From contig JAMCVM010000124.1 of assembly GCA_023475835.1 (NCBI GenBank), positions 1-33,731 of the forward strand: a DNA stretch of 33,731 nt, written 5' to 3'. The DNA comes from Bacillota bacterium. GTDB taxonomy: Bacteria > Bacillota > Sulfobacillia > Sulfobacillales > Sulfobacillaceae. The translations under genes and the position numbers were made by a program. The notes below the pieces were generated by a model that did not search any database, had not been told where the DNA came from, and saw nothing but the letters and a program-made list of their open reading frames with translations. Positions 3,187 through 31,875 of this stretch are shown here, piece by piece; position 1 is the stretch's first letter; every line of letters starts with the position of its first letter.

Positions 3187-4287
3187 GTGGCGGTGGTCGA
3201 ACCCCGAGATGAAATCTTAACCATGCCGGGCTATACTCCCGGACGTTCTGTCGAGATGGTGGCCCGCGAATTGGGATTGAAAGACGTCATTAAACTGGCT
3301 TCGAACGAAAGTTTGTGGGGAACCTCCGAACGAGTATTAGCTGCAGCCTCTAGGAGTCTTTTAAGCCTGTATCAATATCCCGAAGTGGTACCCCTCCCTC
3401 TCGTTGAACTGCTGGCAGAGCGTTCTGGTTTTTCTCCTGCCGAGATTTTGGTTGGCAATGGTGCTGATGAGCTCTTGCGTCTCGTGGCCACGGTCTATGT
3501 GAAACCTGGGCAGCAAGTGATTTACCCCACCCCCAGTTTTGCCGCCTATGCCTATGGCGCAAGCTTGATGGGAGCTCAAGGCGTGGCGGTCTCGTTGCAA
3601 GCCAATGGCGCGATGGACCTCGAGGCGATGGCTGACCGCATCGACTCTAACACCGCGTTAGTTTATCTCTGCAGTCCCAACAATCCTACCGGCGCAATCT
3701 TTCGGCAACAAGAATGGGATCGCTTTTTAGAGCGTGTCGAGGGTCGCGCCTTGATTGTGGTCGATCAAGCTTACCGTGAGTTCGTCGACGATAAGGACTA
3801 TGCACGGATTGAAGATGCCATTCAGCAGGGGCTGGCGGTGGCTATGGTGCGAACTTTTTCTAAGCTCTACGGCCTAGCCGGAGCCCGCGTGGGATGGGCC
3901 GCTGCCCCGGCCCCTGTCATCGACCTCATGCGCCGCGTGCGCGAACCTTTTTCTCTTAATGCGATTGGCATTGCCGCTGCCACCGAGGCTCTTCGTGACT
4001 GCGAGTATTTCGACCATGTTCGCCAAGAAACATTGGCACTGCGCCGTTGGCTGCAGATCGAATTGACGAGGCGCGGGCTGAGCGTACTAGAAAGCCAAGC
4101 AAACTTTTTGACCTTCGCCTGCCCAATCGATGCCACCGACATGGCCCGGCGTTTGGAACAACAAGGCATCATTATTCGCCCCACCACCAGCTTCGGACTT
4201 CCTCAGCATTGCCGAGTCTCCATTGCTCCCAAACCGATGCTAGAACGTTTCGTCCACGGCTTAGATCGCATTCTGGCCGAAGCCTAA
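3187..4287 (+). CDS. hisC: Histidinol-phosphate aminotransferase
   Basis: HisC (366 aa) converts imidazole acetol phosphate plus glutamate to histidinol phosphate, using PLP, in the cytoplasm. It is a fold-type I aminotransferase. YTPGRSVEMV and KLASNES near the N-terminus are HisC-like. SPNNPTG (163-169) carries the PLP-ring asparagine, VVDQAYREF gives D193 and Y196, and RTFSKLYGLAGARVGW carries the Schiff-base lysine K226 and the phosphate-binding arginine R234. It is first in the his operon. The start is GTG at 3187, only four bases after GAGG; GTG at 3193 has better spacing and would shorten the protein by two residues. The 73-base gap to hisZ contains a second promoter. Confidence 0.93.
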   Translation: MAVVEPRDEILTMPGYTPGRSVEMVARELGLKDVIKLASNESLWGTSERVLAAASRSLLSLYQYPEVVPLPLVELLAERSGFSPAEILVGNGADELLRLVATVYVKPGQQVIYPTPSFAAYAYGASLMGAQGVAVSLQANGAMDLEAMADRIDSNTALVYLCSPNNPTGAIFRQQEWDRFLERVEGRALIVVDQAYREFVDDKDYARIEDAIQQGLAVAMVRTFSKLYGLAGARVGWAAAPAPVIDLMRRVREPFSLNAIGIAAATEALRDCEYFDHVRQETLALRRWLQIELTRRGLSVLESQANFLTFACPIDATDMARRLEQQGIIIRPTTSFGLPQHCRVSIAPKPMLERFVHGLDRILAEA

Positions 4288-4294
4288 CCGGGTC

Positions 4295-4357
4295 TTGCCC
4301 ATTTTAGAGGATGCATGCTACAATTCACTTTAGCACGATAGTGTATTAGCGAGGTGA
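4295..4357 (+). promoter_or_regulatory. hisZ promoter and leader, twin of the hisC promoter
   Basis: TTGCCC (4295-4300), an 18-base spacer and TACAAT (4319-4324) are followed by CTTTAGCACGATA and ATTAGCGAGGTGA. The only differences from the hisC block downstream of the -10 are one single-base insertion and three substitutions. The GAGG ribosome site (4351-4354) lies six bases before the hisZ ATG. The promoter lies between the hisC stop and hisZ, so hisZ onward could be transcribed independently of hisC. Confidence 0.6.
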
Positions 4358-4360
4358 CTT

Positions 4361-5179
4361 ATGAAGACTTGGATGGCTCAGGCCCGCGATCAGTTTCGAC
4401 AAACCAGCGCCCTGATTGGACAATTGGACCAAAAGGGATTTACTCCCGTCTCCACCGCACCTACGCACGATACCGAGGTGCGCCGAGATCACACCCTAGC
4501 CATCATCGAACGCTTGGCATCCTGGTCACCCGAGGCTTTTGAGTATCCGCTCAAGGTTTTTTCCACCGGTCCGGTCTTCGCCCACGGAACCTGGGCCGAA
4601 AGCCTGGACGTGGAAGTGCTGGAAGATCCCATGGTCGATCCCGAAGCCATCATTTTCGACCTTTTAACCCACCTTATCTCTGAACGCTTTATCCCTCCGA
4701 GCAACCGGGACCTGGTGTTCGTGGCTGGCCACTTGGGCCTCTTGCGCACGCTCCTCTCCCAAAGCCAATGGCCGCCGGAAGACATCTCGGCACTGGAACG
4801 AAACTTTGCGGAAGGACGCTTTAGCCAAGCCGAACGTTTCGTTGCCAAACGCAATCCGAACCTCTTGCCACTGTTCCGACCGACGCCGCCGAGAGCCGTT
4901 CTCTCGCTGTTGGACTCGCTCCCCGGGGCCAGTACAGGAAACAATGTGAGGGCACTGACGGCGGTGCTTCCCTCTGGGGTCGACCATGTGCCTTCGGTCC
5001 TCTGGGATTTGAGCCTCACCGGGGCCTTTGCCTACTACTCCGGCCTTGTGTTTGCACTCTATGCCCGGGGTCAGGGAGAAGCCCTCATAAAAGGGGGCCG
5101 CTTTTCGGTGCACTATCAAGAGCGCCACTGGCAAGGTGCGGGGTTCACCATTGTGTTGCCCGAATGGTTTGCTTCGTAA
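4361..5179 (+). CDS. hisZ: ATP phosphoribosyltransferase regulatory subunit
   Basis: HisZ is a catalytically dead paralogue of histidyl-tRNA synthetase. It assembles with short-form HisG and carries the histidine feedback response of the first pathway step. The protein is 272 aa, shorter than many HisZ proteins (about 380 aa), and keeps only a class II synthetase-like core: the TGPVFAHGTWAES segment occupies the motif 2 position and a glycine-rich GALIKGGRF-like tail lies near the C-terminus. The usual motif 2 arginine is not obvious, consistent with loss of aminoacylation. Sequence similarity is weak; the identification rests largely on its place just before a HisG that lacks a regulatory domain. 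The ATG follows GAGGTGAC closely, and the gene has its own promoter. Confidence 0.75.
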   Translation: MKTWMAQARDQFRQTSALIGQLDQKGFTPVSTAPTHDTEVRRDHTLAIIERLASWSPEAFEYPLKVFSTGPVFAHGTWAESLDVEVLEDPMVDPEAIIFDLLTHLISERFIPPSNRDLVFVAGHLGLLRTLLSQSQWPPEDISALERNFAEGRFSQAERFVAKRNPNLLPLFRPTPPRAVLSLLDSLPGASTGNNVRALTAVLPSGVDHVPSVLWDLSLTGAFAYYSGLVFALYARGQGEALIKGGRFSVHYQERHWQGAGFTIVLPEWFAS

Positions 5180-5210
5180 GTCCGCTGTCGCTCAGAGAGG
5201 GGGGAGATGC

Positions 5211-5837
5211 ATGGAACACTTTCACGATATTCGCGTGGCTATCGCTAAAGGCCGCATTTTAGAACAACTGGTTCCGCGCTGGACCAAGGCCCATCTTCCT
5301 TGGCCGATCGAGCCAGAAAGCCGCCAATTGTGGTTTTCTGGGGATGACGCCGGCCCGGGCGCAATGATTGTGCGCGGGCCTGATGTACCTACGCTGGTCG
5401 CCCGCGGAGCGGCAGATCTCGGCATCGTCGGCACCGACCTCTTGGTGGAGCGAGGCATCCAAGGGGTTTTGGAAGTGGGCGACCTGGATCTGGCCGAATG
5501 TCGGGTGGTGTTAGCTGGCACCAGCGGCAAGCGCCCTGACGGGCCGTTCCGGGTCGCTAGCAAGTACCAGAAAATCACCCGCGACTATCTCGACCGCAAT
5601 CATTTCCAGGCGGATATTGTTCGTCTTTCTGGCAGTCTCGAGCTGGCCCCGTTGATTGGGTTGGCCGCCTATATTGTCGACATCGTGGAGACTGGAGAAA
5701 CCCTGCGCCAACATCGTCTCATCGAGATAGAAACCATCATGCCGTCACACGCCTGTCTCATCGCCAATCCGGCGCATTGGCGAGCCAAGCCGGAGGTCGT
5801 CACCATTCGCGATCGCCTGGTCCAGCACCTGGCCTGA
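5211..5837 (+). CDS. hisG: ATP phosphoribosyltransferase, catalytic subunit (short form)
   Basis: HisG condenses ATP with PRPP to give phosphoribosyl-ATP, the committed step of histidine synthesis. The product is 208 aa, the short form that ends after the two catalytic lobes and lacks the C-terminal ACT-like regulatory domain; such enzymes need HisZ, which is the preceding gene. Visible motifs are VAIAKGRILEQL at the N-terminus, AADLGIVGTDLLVE in the middle and the PRPP loop VDIVETGETLR near residue 165. The open frame extends upstream into hisZ, but the ATG at 5211 is preceded by a GAGGGGGGAG ribosome site and begins where the family begins. Confidence 0.92.
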   Translation: MEHFHDIRVAIAKGRILEQLVPRWTKAHLPWPIEPESRQLWFSGDDAGPGAMIVRGPDVPTLVARGAADLGIVGTDLLVERGIQGVLEVGDLDLAECRVVLAGTSGKRPDGPFRVASKYQKITRDYLDRNHFQADIVRLSGSLELAPLIGLAAYIVDIVETGETLRQHRLIEIETIMPSHACLIANPAHWRAKPEVVTIRDRLVQHLA

Positions 5838-17686: not shown

Positions 17687-19030
17687 TCAAATCTCCTTTC
17701 CATCGCCGCGGTCATCCGCCGCGATGTCAAGTTCTCCCCATTCTTTCACGGGGTCCGTTATTTGATGCAACGTATCACGTAACCGAGGATTCGCCAAGAC
17801 CTCTTCCGGAATATAGACTCGACGTACCCGCCTTTTGGTCTCTTGAGCCATGGCCCGAATAGCCCGGGAGATCTGAGACACTTCGGTCAGCTGCCCGGAT
17901 TCTTCATCGGCCAAGAAGAGACCGTCACCGTGCACTTCATCTCGATCCCCCAAATAATAATCATAATAAACTGCACCGATTTCGTCGATGGTACAGTAAT
18001 ATTCCGGATCAAATCCGGCCGCCGCCACCAACTGGTTGAGCACCTTTAAGGTCTCCTCCGTAGGCCGGGCACTGCCCAGTTCTCGATATTTGGGTAGTCT
18101 TCGATCTAAAAACCTCTGGCTGAGATCAGACAAGATCAGATCGCCGTGGCGCTGCCAGGCCGTAAACGATGCCAGCAAGATCGAATCGTCGACGGCCAAA
18201 TAATCGGCCAGCGACCACTCTCCGGCGAGCAAGCGGTCAAATTCGGGAAAAAGCGAAAGCCTGTGCCCCCCTTCGCCGACCAGATGCTGCGCCCGACGCA
18301 AAATCATTTTTAATAGGATCTCGGCCGCCCGGCATACCGGATGAAAGTAGACCTGCCAGTACATGAAATAGCGAGCCAAGAGATACGCCTCTACGGTATA
18401 GCGCCCGCTTTTTTTGACCACCAACCGATCCTGTTGGGGCACCATGATACGCACAATGCGAGGCAGGTCAAATTTTCCGTAATCCACTCCGGTAAACAGC
18501 GAGTCGCGCATCAAATAGTCCAGTCGATCCGCATCCAGTTGGCCAGAGACCAGGGAAACCACTAAACGATTGGGGTGGGTCTTGCCAATAACGTCCGCCA
18601 CTTCGGCTGGAAAATTAGACGAAACCCGGGACAGCGCCTGATGCACCTCAGTCGAGGGGTGGCGAATAATGGCCTCCGACCAATCCTCGTGATGAGTGTC
18701 CAACACGGACTCCAAAGCATGCGAAAACGGCGCGTGGCCCACATCGTGCAACAATCCACTGACTAAGGCTAGCCGTTGATCCGCTGGGGGCAGTCCGTAG
18801 CCATTGCGATCAAAATGCGATAAAATTTGACGCATCACCTCATAGACCCCAAGGGAATGAGAGAAACGGCTGTGTTCGCCCCCGGGATAGGTATGATATG
18901 CGGTGCCGAGTTGTCTGATTCGTCGTAAACGTTGGACCTCTCGGGCATTGATTACGTCCCAAATCATCGGATCATGAACGTAGATATATCCATGGACCGG
19001 ATCCTTAAAGACTTTTTCTTGTTCTTGCAT
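17687..19030 (-). CDS. HD-domain phosphohydrolase, YwfO/dNTPase-like
   Basis: A 447-aa COG1078-type HD protein. The start DPVHGYIYV, the REVQRLRRIRQLG segment and GGEHSRFSHSLG (H58) are typical of the group; the HD pair is H95/D96 in LLHDVGHAPFSH, and the last metal aspartate lies in QLDADRLDYLMRDS. Characterised relatives hydrolyse dNTPs under allosteric control by nucleotides; this one may do the same. The open frame begins at 19234 but ATG 19030, after GAGG, starts at the family N-terminus. It is first in a tight minus-strand run with a glycosyltransferase one base downstream, which is not an obvious functional partner. It diverges from the NRAMP-like gene with 164 bases between. Confidence 0.88.
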   Translation of the reverse strand: MQEQEKVFKDPVHGYIYVHDPMIWDVINAREVQRLRRIRQLGTAYHTYPGGEHSRFSHSLGVYEVMRQILSHFDRNGYGLPPADQRLALVSGLLHDVGHAPFSHALESVLDTHHEDWSEAIIRHPSTEVHQALSRVSSNFPAEVADVIGKTHPNRLVVSLVSGQLDADRLDYLMRDSLFTGVDYGKFDLPRIVRIMVPQQDRLVVKKSGRYTVEAYLLARYFMYWQVYFHPVCRAAEILLKMILRRAQHLVGEGGHRLSLFPEFDRLLAGEWSLADYLAVDDSILLASFTAWQRHGDLILSDLSQRFLDRRLPKYRELGSARPTEETLKVLNQLVAAAGFDPEYYCTIDEIGAVYYDYYLGDRDEVHGDGLFLADEESGQLTEVSQISRAIRAMAQETKRRVRRVYIPEEVLANPRLRDTLHQITDPVKEWGELDIAADDRGDGKEI

Positions 19031-19194
19031 GACGGCCTCACTTTCTTTCTCTGACAAAATTCTTAAAACGCGAGCCGATCTCCTGCTTTGGGGCAAACGT
19101 TTTCTTCGACAGATTGCGGTTGACGGTTTCAAACCATTCGCACGCCGGCTCGATTCTGACATACGATAACGGCGTAACGAAAGGAGCCGGTGCG

Positions 19195-20430
19195 TTGCAG
19201 ACCATGCGAACTCCCAATCGTCCGCCCAATCCATCCCCTCCCCGGTTAATATTGTTGCTCGCTCTCATGGGCCCGGGCGTTTTAGGACTCGCCGCGGATA
19301 ACGATGCCGGCGGCATCCTCTCCTATGTGGTCACCGGAGCCACTCATCACTTGCTCTGGTTTATCCCGGCCCTCTTGGTCATGGCACCGGTGACCTATTT
19401 CATTCAAGAGTTGGCGCTCCGCGTGGCGGTTGCCACCAAAAAACCTTTTGCCGCCTTGATTACCGAGCAATTCGGGATTTGGCCGGCGCGAATCAACGGC
19501 CTATGTTTGCATGGCTTAAACCTGCTCACCTTGGTCAGCGAATTCGTAGGCATGGCCCTCGCCCTGTCATGGTTTGGGATTCCCTGGGGGCTTGGGGTGA
19601 TCATCTCCTTCAGTTTAGTGATCTTAGTCACCCGGCTAAAAAGCTATCAGCGCATCGAACGGCTGATGCTAGCCTTTGCCGGCTTTACATTTGCGTTTAT
19701 CCCGCTGGGGCTGATGCTTCACGTCAATCTTAGTCGGGTGCAGGCCGCCTTTGGATCCTGGAGTCTCGGAGGATCGACGCCCTTCTTACTGCTGGCGCTG
19801 GCCGGAAATGCCGTCGCCCCTTGGATGATTTACTGGCAACAAAACGCGACTTGGGCGGGCACGCCGCAAAACCTCCGGCGCGGACGAACCGACGTCCGCC
19901 TGGGTATAGTCGTGCAGATTGTGATGGCGGTGGTGGCGCTCTTTATCGGTGCCCTGGCGGCCGGCCGCAAAACGTCTTTGACTATCCCTATCGCCAATCT
20001 CACCCGCATCGCCGGCCCTTTGGGTCGGACTTTATTTGCCGTCGGACTTTTCGACGCGGGATTTTTGGCTGCCGTGACGATTGGTCTGTCTTCATCATGG
20101 ATGATCCGGGAATTGCTGGCACCCACGCTGGCTAGCCAGCGCCCGCACACGCCGACCGAGGGCATCGCCGGCTGGGTGCACGCCGCCAGCCTCTTGGTGG
20201 CAGCTGCACTGGTTTTGCTGCCCGGGCTCTCACCGGCGCAGATTGCGGTCTGGGCGCAGGCTGCCAGTGGCTTGTTCATGCCCGTCACGCTATTCTTTTT
20301 AGCTTGGATCGCGGTTCGTAGTCGAGCCATGGGATCGATGCGCATGCATTTGCGACGGACCTTTCTCTTTGCTGCCATTATCTTAGGGTTTTTAGCCCTG
20401 GGCCTCTGGAGCATTTTCAGTTTCTTTTAA
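19195..20430 (+). CDS. NRAMP-family metal transporter, atypical ion site
   Basis: A 411-aa membrane protein with about eleven hydrophobic segments, similar to NRAMP proton-coupled divalent-metal transporters. TM1 contains MGPGVLGLAADNDAGG, where typical manganese/iron transporters carry DPGN; here the motif reads DNDAGG (residues 35-40). TM6 reads GNAVAPWMIYW, where typical members have a methionine-proline-histidine (MPH) motif that includes the metal-binding methionine. The two ion-site helices are therefore changed together, as reported for NRAMP-related magnesium transporters, so selectivity may differ from manganese. The start is TTG 19195, eight bases after AAGGAG; ATG 19204 is the alternative. 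Predicted location is the cytoplasmic membrane. Confidence 0.83.
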   Translation: MQTMRTPNRPPNPSPPRLILLLALMGPGVLGLAADNDAGGILSYVVTGATHHLLWFIPALLVMAPVTYFIQELALRVAVATKKPFAALITEQFGIWPARINGLCLHGLNLLTLVSEFVGMALALSWFGIPWGLGVIISFSLVILVTRLKSYQRIERLMLAFAGFTFAFIPLGLMLHVNLSRVQAAFGSWSLGGSTPFLLLALAGNAVAPWMIYWQQNATWAGTPQNLRRGRTDVRLGIVVQIVMAVVALFIGALAAGRKTSLTIPIANLTRIAGPLGRTLFAVGLFDAGFLAAVTIGLSSSWMIRELLAPTLASQRPHTPTEGIAGWVHAASLLVAAALVLLPGLSPAQIAVWAQAASGLFMPVTLFFLAWIAVRSRAMGSMRMHLRRTFLFAAIILGFLALGLWSIFSFF

Positions 20431-25364: not shown

Positions 25365-27977
25365 GTGGTTGTTAATCACGTACGACGTAGCGCCCGGTTC
25401 TTAGTTGGGTTGATGGTTTTGTGCCTGCTCTTGCCCACACTGCTTTGGGCTGCTCCCACCTTCGCTTCGACCCTGCCCGCGGTTCTCACCGACCACTTCC
25501 AAACCGGAACGCTGGCTCCCTTGACGGTAGCTGGCGGAAATTGGAACGTGTCTCAAGGGACGCTCATCGCCAGCAACTACGGCATCCGCACTCCGCTCGA
25601 CAAGCAATTTGTATACGTACCCACCAATATGACTGACGAAGTCATCTTGGCTCAAGTCACCATTACTGCCACTCCCGGCAACGGCAATTGGCGGGTAGGC
25701 ATCTTTACCCATGGAACCGGTACGGCCAATCCGCAAAAGTGGGCCCTCATTCTCCGCGGAGGCACGTTGTCGCTTCTTGACGAAAATACTAGTTGGGTGA
25801 GCCAGATGCCCTTTACCAGCAGTCCCGGTCAAACCTATTCCATGGAACTGGCGGTAGAGGGCACCACCGTCAACGGTCGCGTGTGGCTCAGCAGTCAACC
25901 TGAGCCCACCACTTGGACCATTACCGGTCGATTTCCTCCTAATGGCACGCGATTTGGCAAGGCGGCGGGCCTTTATGTCGCCAACGCCGATGCCAGCTTC
26001 TCCACCTTTGACGTCATGGTGGCTCCACCGAGCCTCGCGGTCACTCCGAACCAGCCTGGGGCGATCTTTCTGCAAGGGCAAGCATCGGGATACAAAGCCA
26101 GCATCACCAACACTTCTGGACAGGCCGGCAATTACCAGGTGGCCTACACCGTGGACAATCTTAACGGGAATGCCGTAGACAGTGGCAGTGTCCCCGCTTC
26201 GGTGCCGGCTCAAGGCACAACCACGGTCAATCTGCCTTTACCGTTGCCTGATTTGGGGTATTACACCGTGTCGTTTGCCCTGACCTCATCCGATGGCTTT
26301 CCGATTGAAACCCTGCCGGCCACCAGTCTCGCCCAGGTTCCACCTCCGTCGGAGGAGTCGGATGCCTCCAACCCGGTAGGAATGAACGGGAATCTCACCT
26401 ACACGGCAACGTCTAGTGCCAGCGGCGACGTCTCCGATGCCTTCCGCACCCTTCGTGAGCAAGGCATCGGCTGGTACCGACTAAACATGAATTCGACCAC
26501 CATCTTTCCTACCCACGCTTCAAGCACTCATCCCAATTGGCAGAGCATGGATCGACTGGTGGTGGCCGCCCACGGCCAAGGCGTGACCCTGCTCGGACTG
26601 TTAACCGCCTGGCCGGACGGCATGAATCCCTTCGGTCCCAAAGCCAACGTCAGTTTTGCCACCGCTTTAAACGCGTATGTTACCTATGTTCGGCAAGTCG
26701 TCGAGCGTTTTAGCCCGGGAGGCACGCTTGCCCACAACCACGGCTGGTCTACCTACGGCATTTCCACCTGGGAGTTGTGGAACGAACCGGTGACCCGCGC
26801 CTATTGGGGCGGAACCGCTGCCCAATACGCAACCCTGGCTGAAGCCGCTGCTCAGGCGATTCGGTCCATCCAGCCCCACGCGACCATTTTGGCCTATGAC
26901 GACACGCCTGCGAATTTGGTGGCTCAGGACGCGGGGACGTATTCTGGCCTCTCCTTGCACTATTACCCGGGAGACCTCCCTCCCAACAACCCCACATTCA
27001 GTGTCTATGGCACCGTCTTGCAAAACGTCCCTTGGGCCCAAAAAGTGGGCGGCAGTCTATGGCTGACCGAGGCTGGCTGGTCGACACACGACGTGACCCC
27101 TGAGGTGCAAGCCCAAGATTGGGTGGAAACGGTGTTGGACAGTTTGACCGCGGGAGCGGCCCATGTCATGCTGTTCACCCAGATTTATCCCGGGTCGGGA
27201 TTTAGCGAACAACATACCGACTTAACCCCTAAAATTAGCTATCCCGCCCTAGCGGCGGTTAACCGCCGCTTATCCGGGTATACCCCAGTCGGTCGCCTCG
27301 CTCTGGGCTCGTCCGTCATTGCCGACGCGTTCAGCAACCAGAGCGGAACCATGGTCGCCATCTGGAGTCCACAGGGCAATGGTCAATTAACCCTGCCATC
27401 CGGCAGCGGCCCGGTCGTCGCCTATGATTGGATGGACAATCCGATTAATCCCGATGGAGGGTCGCGCATCATTGTGCCCCTAAGCCCGAGTCCGGTTTAT
27501 CTCGTCTTTCCGGAGGATACCCCGGCTATCGCCGATGCCGTGTTAAGCGATTCCACCGAAACCAATATTACTCCGTTTAGTTTGTCGGCAGCTCCTCAAG
27601 CCTCCTCCAGCGCACAACATCCGGTGGTATCCGTGACGATCAACAATTCGACCAATCAACCCTTAGGCGGCACGCTGACGCTGACTTTGCCCTCGGGTTG
27701 GAGCGGCCAGCCTACGGCGTCGCTGACCAGCCAATCGGTGTACGATCCTAGCCTTAACGTGGGCCCGATTCCCGTCAACGGCAGTTTTAATGCGGTCTTC
27801 ACACTCAACACCCCCCGCCCGGTTGCTCGCTATCGCCTCATCGCCTCCATGACCAGTGTCAATGGCGGGCCTCCAGTCACCTTAAGTACTACCGTAGACT
27901 CGGTCTTTACGGGTTCTACCGCCGGCGATCGTCCGTCGCTGAAAAAATCGCCGAAGGCAAAAAAGTATGGCAGCTAA
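25365..27977 (+). CDS. Secreted multi-domain clan GH-A glycoside hydrolase
   Basis: An 870-aa exported protein. Residues 1-35 are a signal peptide with basic start and hydrophobic core. Residues about 40-220 look like a beta-sandwich of the laminin-G/carbohydrate-binding type, and 222-325 like an Ig/CARDB domain. A TIM-barrel glycosidase follows (about 335-660) with acid/base E474 in TWELWNEPV and nucleophile E569 in LWLTEAGWS, typical of GH39/GH5-related clan GH-A enzymes. The C-terminus (about 735-850) is another beta domain, ending in a lysine-rich tail. Substrate is not predictable. The start is GTG 25365, seven bases after AAAGGAG. Tandem hairpins follow at 28018. It stands alone as one transcription unit. 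Confidence 0.85.
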   Translation: MVVNHVRRSARFLVGLMVLCLLLPTLLWAAPTFASTLPAVLTDHFQTGTLAPLTVAGGNWNVSQGTLIASNYGIRTPLDKQFVYVPTNMTDEVILAQVTITATPGNGNWRVGIFTHGTGTANPQKWALILRGGTLSLLDENTSWVSQMPFTSSPGQTYSMELAVEGTTVNGRVWLSSQPEPTTWTITGRFPPNGTRFGKAAGLYVANADASFSTFDVMVAPPSLAVTPNQPGAIFLQGQASGYKASITNTSGQAGNYQVAYTVDNLNGNAVDSGSVPASVPAQGTTTVNLPLPLPDLGYYTVSFALTSSDGFPIETLPATSLAQVPPPSEESDASNPVGMNGNLTYTATSSASGDVSDAFRTLREQGIGWYRLNMNSTTIFPTHASSTHPNWQSMDRLVVAAHGQGVTLLGLLTAWPDGMNPFGPKANVSFATALNAYVTYVRQVVERFSPGGTLAHNHGWSTYGISTWELWNEPVTRAYWGGTAAQYATLAEAAAQAIRSIQPHATILAYDDTPANLVAQDAGTYSGLSLHYYPGDLPPNNPTFSVYGTVLQNVPWAQKVGGSLWLTEAGWSTHDVTPEVQAQDWVETVLDSLTAGAAHVMLFTQIYPGSGFSEQHTDLTPKISYPALAAVNRRLSGYTPVGRLALGSSVIADAFSNQSGTMVAIWSPQGNGQLTLPSGSGPVVAYDWMDNPINPDGGSRIIVPLSPSPVYLVFPEDTPAIADAVLSDSTETNITPFSLSAAPQASSSAQHPVVSVTINNSTNQPLGGTLTLTLPSGWSGQPTASLTSQSVYDPSLNVGPIPVNGSFNAVFTLNTPRPVARYRLIASMTSVNGGPPVTLSTTVDSVFTGSTAGDRPSLKKSPKAKKYGS

Positions 27978-28280: not shown

Positions 28281-29135
28281 ATGACGTCTCGCTATCGTGT
28301 TCGCATCTTAATTGCTTGTCCGGATCGTCCGGGTATCATTGCTGCGTTATCCGATGGGTTGTTTCGACTCGGGGGCAATATCGTCACGGCCGACCAGCAT
28401 TCCGAAGATCCGGATCAAGGGATGTTTTTTATGCGCCTTGAAGTCGAGTTTCCCTCCACGGTACGCGATCAAGAAGTGTCACGGAGCTTGCGTCATCTGG
28501 GCGAGCAATTTGGGATGATGCTTCGCATCAGTCGCAGCGATGCCCCGCGCCGGATGGCAGTTTTCGTGTCGCGGGAAGATCATTGCATCAAGGAACTGGC
28601 CTGGCAATGCGAAAGTGGGGAAATCGGGGCCTCTATCGCCGTGGTCATCAGCAATCATCGCGATTTGGAAGCCTGGGCCCAATCCGCACACCTGCCCTAT
28701 CACCACATTCCCGTGACCGCGGCGACCAAATCCCAAGCCGAAGCCAAAGCCCAGTCCCTGTTAACCAATATCGACCTGGTGGTGCTGGCCCGCTATATGC
28801 AAATTTTATCTCCCGCGTTTGTCGAAGCCTGGGCGGGGCACATGATTAATATCCACCATTCATTTTTACCGGCCTTCATTGGTCCCAATCCCTATCGCCA
28901 AGCCTTCGACCGCGGAGTCAAACTCATTGGCGCCACGGCTCACTACGTCACCGCCGATTTAGATCAAGGCCCCATCATCGAACAGGATGTGCAACGCGTC
29001 GATCATCGTCAGCGGGTGCCGGACCTTAAACGCTTGGGCCGGCATGTGGAACGGATGGTCCTTACCCGAGCCGTGCGTTGGCACCTAGAAGATCGGGTCC
29101 TGGTCTATCAAAATCGGACTGTCGTCTTCCCCTAA
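28281..29135 (+). CDS. purU: Formyltetrahydrofolate deformylase
   Basis: PurU hydrolyses 10-formyl-THF to THF and formate, balancing one-carbon pools and supplying formate for purine synthesis. The 284-aa protein has an N-terminal ACT domain (about 5-85; CPDRPGIIAALSDGLFRLGG) and a formyltransferase-like catalytic domain. MINIHHSFLPAFIGPNPY supplies the catalytic asparagine and histidine, and VTADLDQGPII the aspartate. GGAG lies 11 bases before the ATG. The gene ends one base from the stop of the convergent GGDEF gene. Regulation through the ACT domain (glycine/methionine in E. coli) is family knowledge. Confidence 0.95.
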   Translation: MTSRYRVRILIACPDRPGIIAALSDGLFRLGGNIVTADQHSEDPDQGMFFMRLEVEFPSTVRDQEVSRSLRHLGEQFGMMLRISRSDAPRRMAVFVSREDHCIKELAWQCESGEIGASIAVVISNHRDLEAWAQSAHLPYHHIPVTAATKSQAEAKAQSLLTNIDLVVLARYMQILSPAFVEAWAGHMINIHHSFLPAFIGPNPYRQAFDRGVKLIGATAHYVTADLDQGPIIEQDVQRVDHRQRVPDLKRLGRHVERMVLTRAVRWHLEDRVLVYQNRTVVFP

Positions 29136-29136
29136 T

Positions 29137-31608
29137 TCACTCCGCTTTGTGCCACAAGCGATAGTGCGCTGGCCACGAAATGCTCATAGCCGCCAGGGGA
29201 ATTTCGGCTAATTGTTCTCGAGCCCAAGCCAGTACTTGCCGTATATCGCTGCCCCGAGGACGACGAATCGCCTTCCACAGGGGCGTTCGGACTAGAAACG
29301 AAAGCGCCCAGTCCGGATTGGGAAAGACCAGTGTGCCCTGGACCGCCTCCTCCTTTTCCAGTCTAAATCCCAGCGACTGGGCTAGCGCGGGCAGTGGATT
29401 CTCGACAGGCCTAAGTGGTTCGTCTAGCCGGACGCCCCAGTTTAGCCAAAACTCGGTCCACGCTTCAGGCCAGTGCCAGGCATCCGCTTCCGCCAACGCC
29501 AATCGGCCCCTTAGACGCAGCACCCGGTGCAGTTCTTTGAGAACCGGTTGGGGACTGCCATCGTAGAGCAAATACGCTCCCAACGCCAAATCAACCGTGC
29601 CGGATACCACCGGTAAATCGCTGGCGTCGGCGACTTGGCCGTGGACCCAAGTCCATTCCGGCTGAAGCCGACGAAACGCCTTGGCTAATTGCACCGCAGA
29701 GCGGTCGGTCACCAAATACTGACCCTTCGCGCCGACCCTCCAAATCATTTCGCCGTCCAGCGCTAAGCGACCGCTGCCCGCTCCGACTTCTACCACCGCT
29801 TGGCCCGGATCGGGGTCGATCCAAGCGATGAACCGACGGGCTTCGTTCTCGCCGTCAAGAAAGGTTCCGCTGTGCAAATCGTCGTAAGCACGGTCCAGCA
29901 ACGCCAGTTCCACCGATCCTTGGGACGGATTCCATAGAGTGCGTCGGCCCACCCCGGTCAACACCAGGGCACCGGACTCGGTAGGGAGGCGGCATTGTTT
30001 CATCTCCATCAGCCGATGGTCTGCCTTGACAATCGCCCCATCCAGTCCTGACGAATCGCTGTAACCTGCCACACCATAGCTAAACTTCAGCGGAATGGGG
30101 CCCTCATCTTCTGCTCGCTCCAAGCGGGTTAACGCCTCTGTCCAATTTTTGGCTTGGTCTTCTGAAGCGCCGGCCCACACCACCAAGAATTCGTCGCCGC
30201 CGTAGCGAATGGCCGACATGCCCGGTTGAATGCATTGGCGGATACGCGCCCCCGCTAATTGAAGCATCCGGTCTCCCTCGCTATGGCCGAACAAGTCGTT
30301 GACCGCCTTAAGACCGTCCATATCCATAAAGATCACCACACCGCGTCCCGCAAGGTTCGAGGCTTTGGCTTCCCACGCCACCCTAGACATTAATCCGGTT
30401 AAGGTATCGATGGCAAAGGCGCTAGGCACGTGGGTAAAGGGGATGAGATTAGTAACAATGATGACAGAATACGGCCGACCCCTTTTTTCTGCGCTAAACA
30501 CCGTAATTCGATGAACTTCTTCCCCGCCCTCTTGTCGACTAATCCGAAAGTTTTGGAACTGAAAGCCTGGGGCCGCGGGGGTGATTTCGGGCCTAATATT
30601 CCAAAGCCCCATTGCCGTGGCGGCAGGTTGACCCAACACAGCATCGACCCCGATGTGGGAAAACCGTTCCGCGGCGCGATTCATGCCAGCGATTTTCCCC
30701 TCTTCATCCACGACAAAAATCGGGACCGGCAAGTCCGCATAGAGCAGATCTCCCATTTCCCGAGCATCCAAGCCCACAAATCCGTCATCTAGGCGAAATC
30801 GTTCCCAGCCCGGCGGGCAAAAGGCCTGCACCGCCTCCACCAGATCCTCGGGATCTGAATCCACCCGGAGCTTGGAGCGCCAGAACTCTGCCGATTCCGG
30901 CCGCCCAAACCCATAACCCTGCACCCAGTCGATCTTAAGTCGCCGAAGCCAGTCTGCCATCGTTGGGTCTTCGACCCCTTCCGCGATGACCAGAGCATCG
31001 ATCCGATGAGCCTCCTTAATCCAAGAGTGGAGCGCCCCAACGTCGCCTGACTCGTGAGCCTCAACGATTAATGACCGATCCAATTTGACAAAGGCCGGTT
31101 TTAACCAAGCCATTCGTTCTAAATCTGCCATTCCCGTGCCCGCATCATCGAGCGCCATGCGCACACCAATCCCGCGCATTCTTTCAACTCCAGCAACGGC
31201 CAAGTCTCGGTATGTCTCGGGGCTCTCAATCAGTTCTAAAACCAGCGCGTCGCGTTGACGCCAGCGGGCCAAGATTACGCCAACACCGCCGGAAGGACTA
31301 GAAGACAAGCTCAAATGATTGGGATGGATATTAAGGAACAACAACCCGGGTAAGGACCGCGCTTGAACGAGGGCCGAGCGAATGGACAAGATGTTGAGGT
31401 CGCGACCGCGTTCCATGCGAATCGCGGTGTCAAAGGCCGCCGTCGGAGACATGTCGCCGAATCGTGCGAGTCCTTCAAAACCCACCACGCGGCCGGTGGT
31501 CAGATTCCACAGCGGTTGAAACACATGGTCCAAGGTATCGCCCGCTAAGATTTTAGCTATTTTTTCAGGATTTTCATCGCTTTGGCAAGCCATGCTTTGT
31601 GTATTCAT
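29137..31608 (-). CDS. EAL-PAS-GGDEF protein fused to a SAM-dependent methyltransferase
   Basis: An 823-aa soluble protein with an unusual domain order. Residues 27-236 are an EAL c-di-GMP phosphodiesterase domain: E46 (EGL variant), N93, E125, D154/D155, K175, E210 and Q230 are all readable, so it may be active. A PAS-like segment (about 290-385) follows. Residues 400-545 are a GGDEF diguanylate cyclase domain with intact GGDEF (470-474) and DMDGLKAVND; the upstream RxxD inhibitory site is absent. Residues about 590-760 are a class I methyltransferase: VVEVGAGSGRLAL (motif I), YLVTDRS, DLALGAYLLYD and VLKELHRVLRLRGRLALAE. No membrane segment is seen. ATG 31608 follows GGGGTGA by five bases. 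Confidence 0.88.
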   Translation of the reverse strand: MNTQSMACQSDENPEKIAKILAGDTLDHVFQPLWNLTTGRVVGFEGLARFGDMSPTAAFDTAIRMERGRDLNILSIRSALVQARSLPGLLFLNIHPNHLSLSSSPSGGVGVILARWRQRDALVLELIESPETYRDLAVAGVERMRGIGVRMALDDAGTGMADLERMAWLKPAFVKLDRSLIVEAHESGDVGALHSWIKEAHRIDALVIAEGVEDPTMADWLRRLKIDWVQGYGFGRPESAEFWRSKLRVDSDPEDLVEAVQAFCPPGWERFRLDDGFVGLDAREMGDLLYADLPVPIFVVDEEGKIAGMNRAAERFSHIGVDAVLGQPAATAMGLWNIRPEITPAAPGFQFQNFRISRQEGGEEVHRITVFSAEKRGRPYSVIIVTNLIPFTHVPSAFAIDTLTGLMSRVAWEAKASNLAGRGVVIFMDMDGLKAVNDLFGHSEGDRMLQLAGARIRQCIQPGMSAIRYGGDEFLVVWAGASEDQAKNWTEALTRLERAEDEGPIPLKFSYGVAGYSDSSGLDGAIVKADHRLMEMKQCRLPTESGALVLTGVGRRTLWNPSQGSVELALLDRAYDDLHSGTFLDGENEARRFIAWIDPDPGQAVVEVGAGSGRLALDGEMIWRVGAKGQYLVTDRSAVQLAKAFRRLQPEWTWVHGQVADASDLPVVSGTVDLALGAYLLYDGSPQPVLKELHRVLRLRGRLALAEADAWHWPEAWTEFWLNWGVRLDEPLRPVENPLPALAQSLGFRLEKEEAVQGTLVFPNPDWALSFLVRTPLWKAIRRPRGSDIRQVLAWAREQLAEIPLAAMSISWPAHYRLWHKAE

Positions 31609-31875
31609 GAGTTCACCCCGTCTTCATCCAGTGTAAAAAAAATAAATATGGCGTCGAGTTGTAATCGAGGTTATCTCTCACCCTGCCCGCTCCTGCCCAA
31701 GAGCCCCCCGGCCCGGGGCTTGACCGACCCACAATCGACCGGGTGGGACTAGCTCAAAACGACAGCTAAGGGTATCGACCCCGCGCCTAGACGAGAGCGG
31801 ATCTCAATTCAACGAGACTGCGCTCGCTTTGCGACGAGGTCGATACCGCGCCCTACGCTCCCCAATGCCTGCGAT
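31609..31875. other. Noncoding gap between the aldehyde dehydrogenase and the EAL-GGDEF gene
   Basis: 267 bases with no gene. It holds the large inverted repeat at 31771-31847 and an AT-rich block at about 31632-31655 likely to contain the EAL-GGDEF gene promoter on the minus strand. CGATTC and GAATCG around 31871-31888 form a small hairpin overlapping the dehydrogenase stop codon. Confidence 0.5.
31771..31847. repeat. Large inverted repeat, possible structured element
   Basis: GGTATCGACC (31771-31780) and GGTCGATACC (31838-31847) are perfect 10-bp complements. Inside, CGAGAGCG and GCGCTCG nearly pair, extending the structure toward a terminal loop. CGCGCC also follows both outer arms as a direct repeat. 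It lies downstream of the aldehyde dehydrogenase and upstream of the EAL-GGDEF gene. Confidence 0.5.

Follow-up and report, generated by a model that had tools for sequence, protein, structure and literature searches.

A conserved fusion of c-di-GMP turnover domains with a class I methyltransferase domain in relatives of Sulfobacillus

The gene at positions 29137 to 31608 of the window (the whole stretch of 33,731 nucleotides analysed here, which is contig C138 of a 3.8-Mb draft host genome in 246 contigs) encodes an 823-amino-acid protein in which EAL, PAS and GGDEF domains are followed by an S-adenosylmethionine (SAM)-dependent methyltransferase (MT) domain. The gene is conserved, and is neither a chance open reading frame nor a mis-assembly; what sets it apart is the joining of GGDEF to MT, a feature far broader than this one gene. 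Activity of the enzymes, binding of SAM, a direction of coupling and a physiological role are inferences from the sequence, and we tentatively prefer, at somewhat under even chances, a reading in which the MT domain of the EAL-bearing clade acts as a SAM/SAH-responsive module that controls c-di-GMP turnover.

The gene, its domains and its neighbours

The open reading frame runs on the minus strand, in a single frame without interruption, from an ATG at 31608 to a stop at 29137, and includes or adjoins the following features.

29137..31608, minus strand: whole gene, encoding the EAL-PAS-GGDEF-MT protein of 823 aa (intact reading frame, Pfam, homologues in seven genomes)
31614..31619, minus strand: Shine-Dalgarno-like GGGGTG, separated from the ATG by 5 bases (read from the sequence; putative role)
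30898..31548, minus strand: EAL phosphodiesterase domain, aa 21-237 (Pfam E=1.7e-32; residue check against relatives)
30439..30765, minus strand: PAS domain, Pfam aa 286-329, modelled fold ~282-390 (Pfam E=2e-7; AlphaFold model)
29995..30414, minus strand: GGDEF diguanylate cyclase domain, aa 399-538 (Pfam E=7e-23; motif table)
29467..29886, minus strand: SAM-binding core of the MT, ~aa 575-714 (Pfam Methyltransf_25/11 at aa 605-704; model; class I MT structures)
29140..29466, minus strand: C-terminal extension of the MT, ~aa 715-823, the substrate side in related MTs (model; identity tables)

All four domains of the protein exceeded their Pfam gathering scores, in agreement with the initial annotation, which had read this architecture in one product and expected an MT match after residue 585; the Pfam matches to the MT start at residue 605 (Methyltransf_25, 8e-8; Methyltransf_11, 2e-7). 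No stop codon or frameshift separates the domains in the 823-aa frame, and the full-length fusion recurs in other genera. The full-length AlphaFold2 model (mean pLDDT 83, pTM 0.53) has folded domains whose mutual placement is without confidence, and the linker at residues 562-574 is of low confidence in this model.

The catalytic residues of both c-di-GMP turnover domains, which had been described as readable, were confirmed by a residue check and a motif table. In the EAL domain, the E of ExLxR, the N, ExxE, DD, K, EGVE and QG are all there when checked against relatives; in loop 6, DDAGTG takes the place of DDFGTG, and the same F to A change is found in EAL relatives of the class. The GGDEF domain carries RYGGDEF, NDLFGH and a DMD metal site within FMDMDGLK (two-metal DxD), and no RxxD I-site was found upstream of GGDEF in the query, which has QPGM there, or in any aligned family member. 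By their residues, the predicted synthase (GGDEF) and hydrolase (EAL) active sites are thus both complete. c-di-GMP signalling appears to be live in the host, since its genome has about 10 GGDEF, 3 EAL and 3 PilZ domains.

The MT domain has the features of a class I SAM-dependent MT of the Methyltransf_11/25 clan, i.e., the Pfam matches, motif I (VEVGAGSGR), an acidic residue after beta-2 (in VTDRS) and a Rossmann-like fold. An AlphaFold2 model of the MT alone (pLDDT 85, pTM 0.85) has a fold that runs to residue 823, and VIA-align matched it to the class I MTs TleD, BH2331, YcgJ and Coq5 with Z of approximately 20-22, which informs on fold and not on substrate. A UbiE/MenG identity was rejected because the UbiE score of the query lies far under the NCBIfam equivalog cut-off; the MT domains of two relatives likewise fell far under the equivalog cut-offs for UbiE, ArsM and BioC, and a CheR-type MT was rejected as Pfam gave no CheR match at E-values up to 1.

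A gene for PurU (formyltetrahydrofolate deformylase; window 28281-29137) is convergent with the fusion gene, with the two stop codons one base apart, which puts a one-carbon gene next to a gene with a SAM domain. The neighbours PurU and an SSADH-like dehydrogenase are common to the genus only, while g10 and g6 have others; a guess at the MT substrate from the operon was therefore dropped, and no substrate is deduced from the neighbours. An Rfam search of the window for a riboswitch or other RNA gave no match. Elsewhere in the window are an 870-aa protein with sub-threshold Pfam matches to CopC and cellulase (25365-27977; 97% in a congener) and an HD plus HD_assoc_2 protein with a sub-threshold match to dGTP triphosphohydrolase (17687-19234).

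Distribution of the fusion

Proteins with the EAL-PAS-GGDEF-MT architecture, which was sought in other genomes, were found in seven genomes of three genera, all in one family, at identities of 94% (two congeners), 51% (one genome) and approximately 35-39% (four genomes, in one of which, G022, the copy is truncated by a contig end within EAL). Because of this recurrence, the fusion is not a chimera. Mis-assembly of neighbouring genes in a metagenome-assembled genome (MAG), or a frameshift, could find some encouragement in the fragmentation of the host draft into 246 contigs and in one relative (G041, L034) that does show a split frame; this explanation is refuted by independent recurrences, with the junction recurring in seven genomes of three genera and 38 GGDEF-MT fusions overall, and we regard its probability as negligible.

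A maximum-likelihood tree built on the GGDEF-MT region puts the seven EAL-bearing proteins on one side of a fully supported branch (100/99), consistent with a single acquisition of EAL within the PAS-GGDEF-MT family. Genome G002 encodes a stand-alone EAL-PAS protein that is 41-43% identical to the N-terminal half of the fusion as well as a separate PAS-GGDEF-MT protein, and a pair of separate genes like this one is how the EAL-PAS and GGDEF-MT halves could have met. The placement of EAL before GGDEF, which had been singled out as unusual, turned out to be ordinary in the Sulfobacillus class, where at least five EAL-x-GGDEF proteins occur, one of them with a protoglobin domain in between; outside it, an EAL-CBS-GGDEF protein has been published from Pseudomonas aeruginosa (PA3258; PMC12900916). 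In G041 (L034:3666-7258, G041:C48), an EAL-Protoglobin-GGDEF gene adjoins a PAS-GGDEF-MT gene broken into two frames that overlap (4661-5467 and 3666-4799).

A GGDEF-MT profile (A3) had matches in 19 of 154 genomes and 15 of 88 genera of the class that comprises the Sulfobacillus relatives; the query, which is itself a row of this profile, matched positions 2-443 (E=1e-173), with contiguous GGDEF and MT in one frame. Full GGDEF-MT fusions numbered 38 in 18 genomes, including nine in G119, in addition to the one split copy in G041, and their N-termini differ, consisting of PAS, of regions without assignment or of EAL-PAS. A profile scan of contigs yielded 11 loci, ten in Bacillota MAGs and one a weak, unfused MT in Achromobacter; those named records that hold fused relatives are MAGs of Bacillota, including Sulfobacillus sp. 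and the congener G001 (Clostridiales bacterium clean1781). When up to four candidates were scored in each of 398 genomes sampled from the phylum Bacillota, no fusion was found beyond the host's own genome, which does not prove absence elsewhere, and the same sampling (398 genomes, up to four candidates each) of the phylum of the Achromobacter genome found no fusion. Within the searches made, the GGDEF-MT family was thus found only in one Bacillota class, the Sulfobacillus relatives, and no description of a GGDEF-methyltransferase fusion was found in the open-access literature. The same class also has GGDEF-free proteins of about 500 aa with the same kind of MT (L055-L062, L065-L072, L121-L124; e.g., L066:1492-3072), with as many as five copies per genome (in G035, a single contig); their conserved N-terminus of about 200 aa has no Pfam match and reads VVLDTWMNGEQEE...HRPWS...LTxxGR.

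Constraint on the two halves and the role of the methyltransferase domain

Between the query and its congener (G000 vs. G001), dN/dS was 0.20 for EAL, 0.18 for the PAS region, 0.23 for GGDEF, 0.13 for the MT core and 0.25 for the MT C-terminus; every domain is hence under purifying selection in this pair. Compared to its g10 homologue, the query is best conserved in the MT core (60% identity, vs. 55% for EAL and 50% for GGDEF) and least conserved in the C-terminal part of the MT (34%). Among pairs with 45-65% core identity, the ratio of C-terminal to core identity was 0.60 for EAL-bearing proteins, 0.68 and 0.51 for the two PAS-GGDEF-MT groups and 0.83 for the GGDEF-free family, a trend rather than a test, as the pairs are not independent. 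Because of this difference (0.51-0.68 vs. 0.83), SAM binding has apparently been kept in the GGDEF-fused MTs and substrate specificity has not.

In the sister (g6) EAL subclade (G006, G014, G022 and G028), MT motif I is eroded (VNAGRG), while GGDEF is intact in all four members and the EAL residues are intact wherever they can be read; methyl transfer therefore looks dispensable in this subclade. Another relative (L109) has an altered MT motif I and an intact GGDEF. Conversely, L110 (RAGADEL) and L130 (RLEGNVF) have a dead GGDEF site and an intact MT signature, which suggests that the MT has its own job at least in these two proteins. With the GGDEF site lost but the MT motif retained in some members and the reverse in others, the evidence on the direction of coupling differs among members, and, given this double dissociation, neither half simply serves the other in every relative. 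The query has both signatures intact.

For the EAL-bearing clade, the reading that we tentatively prefer is a soluble, PAS-bearing c-di-GMP turnover enzyme whose GGDEF domain would be free of product inhibition via an I-site. SAM or SAH would occupy the class I MT domain in a mainly regulatory rather than catalytic capacity, and this occupancy signal would pass through the short GGDEF-MT linker and tip the balance towards synthesis or hydrolysis; c-di-GMP output would in this way track methyl-donor (one-carbon/sulfur) status together with the PAS signal. The complete EAL and GGDEF residues, c-di-GMP signalling that appears live in the host, the MT core, which ranks first in conservation against the g10 homologue and lowest in dN/dS (0.13), the drifting C-terminal region of the MT and the apparent dispensability of methyl transfer in the sister subclade all count for a SAM/SAH-responsive module that acts on turnover; retention of the MT in L110 and L130 despite a dead GGDEF suggests otherwise, substrate-side drift could mean different substrates rather than none, and the full model gives no confident arrangement of the domains (pTM 0.53).

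The initial annotation had described the MT as an output-type domain, a label on which the evidence is divided: the EAL clade leans towards a SAM-responsive regulatory role (eroded motif I in one subclade, substrate-side drift, conserved SAM core), while L110 and L130, in which GGDEF is dead and the MT intact, lean towards output. A working MT with a small molecule, lipid, RNA or protein as its substrate, gated by PAS-GGDEF(-EAL) through GTP- or c-di-GMP-driven dimerisation or through local c-di-GMP, is in our judgement a close contender, only slightly less probable than the preferred reading. The MT sits at the C-terminus, the usual place of outputs, motif I and the beta-2 acidic residue of the query are intact, and in the GGDEF-free relatives the same kind of MT follows an N-terminal domain unrelated to those of the query; these observations, retention of the MT by the dead-GGDEF relatives and the finding that c-di-GMP binds and inhibits Escherichia coli RlmI (PMC11894153) all favour such an output. 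Against it stand an MT motif I that is eroded in half of the EAL clade, weak conservation of the substrate side and the lack of a conserved neighbour gene hinting at a substrate pathway. That the domains are merely co-localised, as on a scaffold, with turnover and methyl transfer independent or one of them vestigial, would fit the independent loss of each half in different relatives and the low confidence of the linker at 562-574; we consider this unlikely, however, as the fusion is maintained in 18 genomes with many paralogues and all domains are under purifying selection in the query pair. Finally, we give very little credence to the idea that the MT methylates the c-di-GMP (or an intermediate) produced by GGDEF, or its precursor, while EAL removes the unmethylated form, which would create a lineage-specific methylated cyclic dinucleotide signal and in favour of which only the fusion speaks.

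Comparison with known systems

The fusion family of these Sulfobacillus-like bacteria may join methyl metabolism to c-di-GMP signalling. If true, a recurrent covalent link between an MT and a diguanylate cyclase, with nine paralogues in one genome, would represent a direct bridge between the two, for which the sole precedent found is RlmI, a separate protein; relatives in which GGDEF is dead and the MT intact, and those with the reverse, are natural variants for probing the direction of control. What is new is the GGDEF-MT junction; the EAL-first order is ordinary in the class.

Hybrid GGDEF-EAL enzymes such as P. aeruginosa PA0861 (PAS-GGDEF-EAL) and PA3258 (EAL-CBS-GGDEF) resemble the query in having both turnover domains with canonical residues, and PA0861, which Foldseek ranked first for the whole model, shares the PAS sensor; the query differs from this group in having EAL first, a GGDEF without an I-site and a C-terminal SAM-methyltransferase, which is absent from those structures. 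Bacillus subtilis YkuI, which ranked high in Foldseek over approximately 430 columns, also has EAL followed by a PAS-like fold but has neither GGDEF nor MT. MTs of the UbiE/Methyltransf_11 type (TleD, YcgJ, BH2331 and Coq5) share the fold and SAM motifs of the query MT at approximately 14-20% identity, while the query MT is fused to signalling domains and the MT domains scored from its family fell under each NCBIfam cut-off listed. For the terms searched, a census of c-di-GMP sensory inputs (PMC8846402) names SAM only as a ligand that CBS domains may bind and a methyltransferase only as chemotaxis CheR; CheR-containing chemosensory proteins likewise place a SAM methyltransferase in a signalling setting, although the query MT has no CheR Pfam match. 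E. coli RlmI differs from the query in being a separate protein with an rRNA substrate and no GGDEF/EAL fusion; as an rRNA methyltransferase bound and inhibited by c-di-GMP (PMC11894153), it is nevertheless a precedent, at the level of function, for an effect of c-di-GMP on a SAM methyltransferase, and control of the MT by c-di-GMP is therefore possible.
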